From positions 1 through 41,934 of the forward strand of contig JAGCBP010000020.1 of assembly GCA_017652105.1 (NCBI GenBank): DNA of 41,934 nt. The letters are read 5' to 3'. The first letter of the stretch is position 1. Each line of letters opens with the position of its first letter. Position numbers and translations under genes: made by a program. Below the pieces are notes generated by a model, which saw only the letters and a program-made list of their open reading frames with translations, ran no database searches and had not been told where the DNA came from. Below, one piece after another: positions 2-1,402 of this stretch. Origin of the DNA: Candidatus Saccharimonadota bacterium. GTDB taxonomy: Bacteria > Patescibacteriota > Saccharimonadia > Saccharimonadales > Saccharimonadaceae.

Positions 2-904
2 AAAACTGGCGAATTCGTGGTGGCAGGCTCTACCTATGGCAAGGTCCGCACGATGTTGGATTGGAAAGGCAAACCAAAAGGCAAAGCCACCCCATCCACC
101 CCTGTTACGATCACCGGCTTCAAAGATTTGCCAAACTTTGGTGACAGATTTATGGAAGCCAAAGATGAAAAAACCGCCAGAAAAATGGCACTATTAAACG
201 CTCAAGCCGCCGCCAACGAGACCGCCAATGCCAATGTGACATCAACCGACCTCTTACGTATGATGAATGTCGCCGACAATTCCAAGGTTTTCAACGTGAT
301 AGTAAAAGGCGATGTTTTAGGCTCAGTCACATCGGTGGTGGACAACCTCAAACTCATTGATACTCACGGCGAAATCACCCTCAACATCGTGTCTAGCGGT
401 GTCGGCGATGTCAACGAAAACGATGTTTATATGGCCGCTGGCGATCGCACTGTTATTTATGGTTTTAATGTTAATGTCCCGATCAATATTTCCAAAATGG
501 CCGCGCGCGACAACGTGCCGATTAGAACTTACAAAGTGATTTATGAACTCCTGGACGATGCTAAAAAAGAAATGGAAAACCTCCTTGATGCTGAAATCAT
601 CGAGGAAGACAAAGGCGAAATGAAAGTCCTTGGAGTCTTCCGCACCGAAAAGACTAGTATTATTGCCGGCGGGGAAGTATTAAAAGGCGATGTTAAACCA
701 GGTTACCTTGCCCGCGTTGTTAGGGATAAGAAATTTATCGGTGAAGCCGAAGTTGCCAGTACTCAAAAAGAAAAAATGGATGTGCCGGAGCTAGTTGCTG
801 GCGAAACCGGTGGTCTCGCTCTCAAAACCACTCAAAGAATCGACCTTCAGATCAACGACAGACTCGTCTTCTTCACCCGCGAAACCAAGAAACGTACGTT
901 GTAA
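2..904 (+). CDS. infB: Translation initiation factor IF-2, C-terminal part (5' truncated by window)
   Basis: IF-2 is the GTPase that delivers initiator fMet-tRNA to the 30S subunit and promotes subunit joining. The frame is open from base 2, so the gene enters from the left; only about 300 C-terminal residues are present and the G domain lies outside. Visible landmarks are the TGEFVVAGSTYGKVR stretch of the beta-barrel domain after the G domain, a conserved-looking third domain (GDVLGSVTSVVDNL, SSGVGDVNENDV), and the fMet-tRNA-binding C-terminal barrel (LGVFRTEKTSIIAGGEVLKG). It ends in RETKKRTL. The last ~39 bases recur in degenerate form at 1349-1388, which suggests something was inserted at the 3' end. 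Family identity is certain; the N-terminal boundary is unknown. Confidence 0.97.
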   Translation, partial: KTGEFVVAGSTYGKVRTMLDWKGKPKGKATPSTPVTITGFKDLPNFGDRFMEAKDEKTARKMALLNAQAAANETANANVTSTDLLRMMNVADNSKVFNVIVKGDVLGSVTSVVDNLKLIDTHGEITLNIVSSGVGDVNENDVYMAAGDRTVIYGFNVNVPINISKMAARDNVPIRTYKVIYELLDDAKKEMENLLDAEIIEEDKGEMKVLGVFRTEKTSIIAGGEVLKGDVKPGYLARVVRDKKFIGEAEVASTQKEKMDVPELVAGETGGLALKTTQRIDLQINDRLVFFTRETKKRTL

Positions 905-950: not shown

Positions 951-979
951 TTGACCATTTACGCATTCTGCGCTAAAAT
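951..979 (+). promoter_or_regulatory. Sigma-70-type promoter of predicted sRNA
   Basis: TTGACC at 951-956 and TAAAAT at 974-979 are separated by exactly 17 bases, a near-consensus housekeeping promoter. The predicted start is near 985, just before the first of two hairpins and far from any sizeable plus-strand gene, so the promoter most likely drives a short non-coding RNA. Confidence 0.6.
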
Positions 980-983
980 AAGC

Positions 984-1060
984 ATAGGTGGCAACCTTCT
1001 AGGAAGTTGCCTATGGTTGGTGAGCTATCGCTCTTCTTCTAGAATAACGATAGCTCTTTT
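984..1060 (+). ncRNA. Predicted small RNA with own promoter and terminator-like hairpin
   Basis: A transcript starting near 985 would fold into a first hairpin (984-1014; cataggtggcaac pairs with gttgcctatg around a cttctaggaa loop) and then a 9-bp perfect stem, gagctatcg at 1022-1030 with cgatagctc at 1048-1056, followed by TTTT, which resembles an intrinsic terminator. Length would be about 75 nt. The only reading frame in it is nine codons from 1013. It runs antisense to the 3' half of the 26-residue minus-strand micro-ORF at 1025-1105, so it may act on that mRNA. I match it to no known RNA family. Confidence 0.45.
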
Positions 1061-1105
1061 GTTCTTAGGTTTACGTTTGAATTTAAAGTAAAACTCTATT
1101 TCCAT
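1025..1105 (-). CDS. 26-residue micro-ORF antisense to predicted sRNA
   Basis: ATG at 1105-1103 (minus) is preceded at good spacing by a strong Shine-Dalgarno AAAGGAGA, unlike much of the surrounding intergenic sequence. The peptide begins MEIEFYFKFKRKPKNK and ends AIVILEEER: a charged, alternating beta-like N-terminus and an acidic C-terminus, with no membrane segment. Its last codons lie inside the terminator-like hairpin of the plus-strand sRNA. No family recognised. Without a known homologue the evidence is the ribosome-binding site and position only; the antisense arrangement recalls type I toxin-antitoxin loci, but this peptide is not hydrophobic as most of those toxins are. Confidence 0.4.
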   Translation of the reverse strand: MEIEFYFKFKRKPKNKRAIVILEEER

Positions 1106-1402
1106 ACGCAGTCTCCTTTCGCTTTTTGTTTTCACAAATTACTAACGGGAAAACGAGAACCAGAATATTTACCTAGAACATACCTAGGGTCGCAGATTCC
1201 CGTTGAGAGACTTAACTCCTTACGAGCCCTACCCAGAACCTACTACTCTTCAGACCAAAAGCTACGCCAACCACATCGCCAGAGTAGCATATCTGTAAAC
1301 AAACTTCAACCCCCTACCTTTAAAAATACAATCACAAGAAATTTATTAGTCTTCTCTGTCCGCGAAACCAAAGAAACGTACGTTATAGCTAAACTTTTAT
1401 GC
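1106..1402. other. Intergenic stretch, nothing coding recognised
   Basis: Between the micro-ORF and the promoter of the next gene I find only the second infB-end copy (1349-1388) and a weak complementarity between cgggaa near 1147 and ttcccg near 1198. No tRNA, riboswitch or gene of recognisable type is visible on either strand. Confidence 0.5.

Follow-up and report, generated by a model that had tools for sequence, protein, structure and literature searches.

The window, by which we mean the whole stretch of 41,934 nucleotides analyzed here, belongs to contig JAGCBP010000020.1 of a Candidatus Saccharimonadota genome and carries, just past infB, a short islet with two overlapping genes on opposite strands. 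On the minus strand lies a micro-ORF with its own promoter, structured leader and Shine-Dalgarno sequence, and on the plus strand a predicted gene for a small RNA. A sequence-only reading had proposed a promoter-sRNA-terminator unit antisense to the micro-ORF, and all of these elements are present. The positions of promoter and terminator also agree with the plus-strand RNA of about 75 nt that it predicted. The unit is larger than the interval it gave, 984-1105: the antisense promoter lies before this interval, and the leader and promoter of the sense gene (to about 1309) lie beyond it. As it had stated, the RNA covers the 3' part of the micro-ORF: the predicted overlap comprises the last 11 to 12 codons or so and the stop, with full complementarity throughout. 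The antisense terminator sits in the 3' end of the micro-ORF and its stop codon, and its U tract is the complement of lysine codons.

Table 1. Features of the islet and its borders (positions in the window)
Feature	Position	Strand	Remarks
infB 3' end	867-904	+	infB ends at 904
Whole dispersed repeat unit	~945-1320	both	
Antisense promoter, TTGACC (951-956)-N17-TAAAAT (974-979)	951-979	+	10 of 12 consensus matches
Hairpin 1, CTAG in loop (999-1002)	983-1015	+	Fold, covariation
Predicted antisense RNA, ~75 nt	~986-1060	+	5' hairpin, GGTTGG linker, terminator
Linker, GGTTGG (+)/CCAACC (-)	1015-1020		On the mRNA, 3' arm of the 5'-3' long-distance interaction
Intrinsic terminator, stem GAGCTATCG/CGATAGCTC (1022-1056), then TTTT (1057-1060)	1022-1060	+	
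Micro-ORF, MEIEFYFKFKRKPKNKRAIVILEEER, 26 aa	1105-1025	-	Predicted toxin-like peptide
Structured leader of the micro-ORF mRNA	1106-1274	-	CTAG at 1173-1176 and 1184-1187
Shine-Dalgarno sequence, AAAGGAG	1119-1113	-	
5' arm of the long-distance interaction, GTGGTTGGC	1266-1274	-	Predicted mRNA 5' end
Sense promoter, TTGAAG-N17-TACTCT, TG extension	1281-1309	-	Weak in the window; many copies have TATAAT
Degenerate copy of the infB 3' end	1350-1388	+	Borders the islet; 85% over 39 nt

The islet is one copy of a dispersed repeat. Positions 951-1320 are the stretch in common with G000:C6 (89% identity). They recur in the genome of the window, about 668 kb in size, at 89%, 82% and 70% identity, which makes four copies in all. 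By BLAST, this DNA recurred in 21 of 100 genomes of the genus. The earlier reading had recommended a wider search for the peptide and the hairpins. A covariance model trained on 21 copies of the unit (R1) found about 100 copies, spread over 57 of 174 genus genomes with one to six per genome. A model of the antisense half (R3) matched 70 of the 174 genomes at an E value of ≤0.01. The real copy numbers are probably higher, because several copies sit at contig ends. Carriers with names are Candidatus Saccharibacteria MAGs, mainly from sheep, goat and buffalo gut. At an E value of ≤0.001, no other genus was found in an order-level sample of 155 genera that included the genus itself; a family-level sample yielded one further genus with the unit (g8), and a scan of the phylum gave weak matches only elsewhere. 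Two pattern matches from outside the Saccharibacteria (L172 and L177) were rejected as chance (11.6 bits, no match).

Some loci had an unusual arrangement. One g8 locus (L269, G740:C1:129700-130800) seems to hold three or more units in tandem, which differ in their micro-ORFs (e.g., MSVRIIILGVSVEFGIRFPKFKKIRH) and share one anatomy, namely, a CTAG leader hairpin, Shine-Dalgarno sequence, micro-ORF, stop-overlapping stem, CTAG hairpin and TATTATA. At L014, L086 and L100, the unit is apparently repeated head to tail, with the common junction GCCTAGGCTTAAG..GTGAGGGGGG. A possible further relative, with the peptide MENFEVDYIIVKLKKKAPSNKEEDS, lies by tRNA-Leu at L022/L147 (G077:C7:43000-45800); there, GTGGGGGC on the 5' side matches GCCCCCAC on the 3' side, and the tRNA terminator hairpin is duplicated, one on each side.

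We then asked how far the antisense gene departs from a chance resemblance of unrelated motifs. A scan of the locus alone counted 11 promoter-like sites, near the chance expectation (6.8 ± 2.7 in shuffled sequences), and did not list the terminator, whose loop has 17 nt. The fold z-score was -2.5 for an 80-nt antisense RNA and -4.9 for the opposite strand. What carries the case beyond chance is conservation, in the form of an antisense promoter at a fixed distance and two covarying hairpins. Of 93 copies, 60% had a promoter with at least 10 of 12 consensus matches at this fixed place; in shuffled sequences, the share was 2%. Across copies, a TTGAC-N17/18-TATAAT promoter lies about 22 nt from the CTAG loop, with a poor -35 element in some of them. 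Covariation was seen in both the terminator stem and the CTAG hairpin, with double-sided changes in 11 of 12 pairs. Given this conservation and covariation and the selection on the peptide (see below) over about 100 copies, chance resemblance is refuted, and we give it practically no weight. These patterns mark the antisense gene as a genuine, conserved unit, with transcription predicted from its promoter and terminator. In an alignment of 39 intact copies, the CTAG motifs of the hairpin loop and the leader were invariant, and structure prediction left the hairpin CTAG mostly open; together, these features suggest a loop-loop contact.

The ORFs of the intact copies have 23 to 28 codons and follow one pattern of alternating residues, a turn and again alternating residues. 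Over 554 moderately diverged pairs, the overall pN/pS was 0.23; it was 0.14 for the codons ahead of the antisense overlap and 0.56 for the terminator stem, whose sequence is constrained on both strands. These values are guides rather than tests since pS is high and the pairs share ancestry. The earlier reading had made its case depend on conservation of the peptide, and the peptide is indeed conserved; the substitution pattern indicates that the micro-ORF is under purifying selection as a protein. Its account of an ORF of 26 residues behind a strong Shine-Dalgarno sequence held, as did its remark that the peptide is charged, not hydrophobic: 8 of the 26 residues are K or R and 5 are E, giving a cationic peptide. 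It is not a hydrophobic alpha-helical transmembrane peptide of less than 60 aa, and no transmembrane segment was seen by inspection. For a natural 34-aa sister, AlphaFold2 with a single sequence predicted a beta-hairpin with strands at residues 2 to 14 and 19 to 31, the best of five models having a pLDDT of 83 and the others 57 to 72. Divergent peptide classes (FNFVFRFGSKTKKITIRIEW; RLFTKKITILIEW; INLLCIIIPRRKS) occur with the anatomy kept. The peptides gave no match up to an E value of 1 in Pfam, NCBIfam and PHROGs, where queries this short have little power.

In the window and its relatives, the predicted mRNA opens with GGTTGG..., which can pair with CCAACC directly past the stop codon. The mean pairing energy was -13.5 kcal/mol for matched arms versus -10.6 kcal/mol for permuted ones, with 0 of 20,000 permutations reaching the matched value, a P value that is optimistic because the test ignores shared ancestry. 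By this test the two arms of the fold-back coevolve, and covarying arm pairs such as GGTTTGGGCGG/ACGCCCAAACA and GGTCTTGGGAGC/GCTACTCAAGATA occur. The fold-back was predicted in 51 of 59 free ensembles. RNAalifold gave little signal on the full-length alignment, probably because two leader subtypes were mixed. Freeing of the Shine-Dalgarno sequence by 3' trimming was considered and rejected: its predicted opening went from 0.52 to 0.53 on removal of the 3' end. Since truncation leaves the opening unchanged, control of translation by the fold-back is not supported by folding. The antisense linker has the same GGTTGG and overlaps the 3' arm, so the antisense RNA should be able to compete for that arm. 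Farther upstream, the motif GGTGAAAACRNTTATG was seen about 23 nt ahead of the sense -35 element in 5 of 59 copies (L021, L023, L024, L124 and L143). The motif considered upstream of the sense promoter, GGTGAAAAC..TTATG, was rejected, being present in just 5 of 59 copies.

The two halves of the unit do not decay alike. In 14 copies, the antisense half was kept and the Shine-Dalgarno sequence or the ORF start was lost, corresponding to about 10 independent events when shared junctions or flanks were counted once. Most ORF-less copies retain both the antisense promoter and the terminator. Several other copies have frameshifts in the lysine tract. A model of the sense half (R2) found no strong sense-only copy apart from a single one truncated where its contig ends. 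The one-sided loss of the ORF is indirect evidence, being the pattern expected if the peptide is costly and an antisense RNA keeps it in check; deletion-prone leaders could account for part of the orphan antisense pattern. It also bears on whether the peptide is instead a nontoxic small protein with a stress or regulatory role, e.g., binding to nucleic acids or ribosomes, and the antisense RNA adjusts its dose. A charged and conserved peptide with no apparent transmembrane segment, facing an antisense promoter that looks constitutive, would suit such a protein. However, the one-sided loss, the multicopy dispersal and the rapid diversification better suit a costly peptide, and we consider a nontoxic role unlikely.

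The genomic context was examined at infB and across copies. In 28 of 29 relatives at this locus, infB adjoins a DUF5663 gene, usually at a distance of 25 to 130 nt, and a few have other inserts; in the window the distance is 1,020 nt and holds the islet and a 158-aa ORF. The gap between infB and DUF5663 seems to be an insertion hotspot, with other inserts in L235, L237 and L240. The 158-aa predicted ORF (1419-1895) lies between the islet and the DUF5663 gene and looks membrane-like by eye; one other was found among 60 genus genomes, likewise beside DUF5663. The earlier reading had described a portable module inside an infB-flanked islet. Its portability is borne out, as about 90 copies occupy about 63 to 67 distinct flank contexts with no fixed neighbor, and almost all relatives lack the unit between infB and DUF5663. 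The infB flanks, however, are peculiar to the window copy, for which the infB relic suggests recombination at infB, and do not represent a general insertion signature. Site-specific insertion as the source of the infB repeat was rejected because direct repeats flank only a few copies (the window, L007 and L138); those in L086/L100 mark tandem arrays. A search for a general target site duplication at the unit ends found none, most copies having no flanking repeats. Two inverted matches in G077 were discarded as transposon ends, one of them being read as the sense promoter of a divergent relative. Phage or plasmid cargo was likewise rejected, with no DNA match in phages or plasmids and no pattern match in viral contigs.

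These data bear on two further explanations. Dispersal with several copies per genome, tandem arrays and copies at contig ends are what a nonautonomous mobile element (MITE- or repeat-like) might leave behind, its ORF and RNAs serving spread and not the cell. We hold this to be quite improbable in view of the lack of a general target site duplication and the strong selection on the peptide, and neither terminal inverted repeats (aligned copies, by eye) nor a transposase partner were noticed. The other is a leader-peptide attenuator or riboswitch acting on a neighbor gene, as a short ORF with a strong Shine-Dalgarno sequence within a structured RNA might suggest. It is largely refuted and very improbable: about 65 contexts have no downstream gene in common, the window copy is convergent with infB, and Rfam gave no match at the gathering threshold and at an E value of ≤5, including for 850-1450.

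We think it fairly probable that the unit is an antisense-controlled micropeptide module resembling type I toxin-antitoxin systems, with transcription, antisense repression, toxicity and trigger all inferred. The type I-like geometry pointed out earlier is supported: the gene for a small peptide, selected as a protein, has a promoter and translation signals of its own and is overlapped on its mRNA by an antisense gene recognizable from promoter to terminator by anatomy and conservation. The peptide differs from membrane-associated type I toxins in its charge and in the beta-hairpin predicted for its sister. In the mechanism that we propose, a minus-strand mRNA from about 1274 to about 980 would encode the 26-aa cationic peptide with its alternating strand-turn-strand pattern, and its 5' GGTTGG would fold onto the CCAACC past the stop, so that the full-length mRNA stays compact. 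A constitutive antisense RNA of about 75 nt would cover the stop, the last codons and the 3' arm; its GGTTGG linker would displace the fold-back and pair with the mRNA, a contact that might start between the CTAG loops of the two RNAs. This pairing would block translation, lead to mRNA decay, or both. The peptide would be made when the antisense supply drops or the mRNA 3' end is trimmed, and once made, it would harm the cell or a parasite living in it.

A wider proposal, which we advance tentatively and rate slightly short of probable, is that the units represent an undescribed superfamily of beta-hairpin toxins under RNA control, which diversifies fast in the Saccharibacteria (Patescibacteria). 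Several peptide classes (EIEFYFKF..RKPKTKK and the three divergent ones above) would share one RNA architecture, made up of hairpins with CTAG in the loop, a 5'-3' fold-back with coevolving arms and an antisense terminator inside the ORF. The superfamily would have converged on the control logic of AapA and hok and might act against phages or in host-epibiont conflict. According to a 2021 review, such toxins had been described only in Proteobacteria and Firmicutes (PMC8309996), and in the library searched, no paper linked Saccharibacteria with type I toxins or with antisense RNA and toxin-antitoxin. If the proposal is true, antisense-controlled peptide modules reach ultrasmall, gene-poor epibionts, with up to 6 copies per genome of about 0.7 Mb, and the peptide type is nonhelical. 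The roughly 100 copies, ORF-less remnants included, would be a natural series on the spread and decay of RNA-controlled toxins, and the covariance models can annotate noncoding RNAs and micro-ORFs at present missed in these genomes.

Among known systems, hok/Sok is similar in having an antisense RNA and an mRNA that, here by prediction, is folded back. Sok acts at the mok frame in the leader; Hok has about 50 aa and is a membrane protein. The hok mRNA is inert by folding and requires 3'-end processing, with an antisense RNA as the partner (PMC6733600). The usual type I toxin is a hydrophobic transmembrane helix (PMC8309996). In the Bacillus pairs txpA/RatA, bsrG/SR4 and yonT/SR6, the small toxin mRNA is overlapped at its 3' end by an antisense RNA about 100 nt long, as described in PMC5848175 and, for bsrG/SR4, also in PMC8309996. 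The unit is like these pairs in its antisense overlap at the 3' end of a small-peptide mRNA; the Bacillus toxins described there are mostly hydrophobic membrane peptides from prophage regions, whereas the peptide here is shorter and charged, and its gene is dispersed with no phage match. By analogy, the closest known mechanism would be that of AapA/IsoA, which is chromosomal and multicopy and combines a cis-overlapping antisense RNA of about 80 nt, a small peptide and a 5'-3' interaction in the mRNA (PMC6733600). AapA/IsoA belongs to another phylum and makes a membrane-type toxin, unlike the charged peptide here; moreover, our antisense RNA lies over the end of the ORF and the arm past the stop, and in predictions the Shine-Dalgarno sequence is not masked by the fold-back itself.
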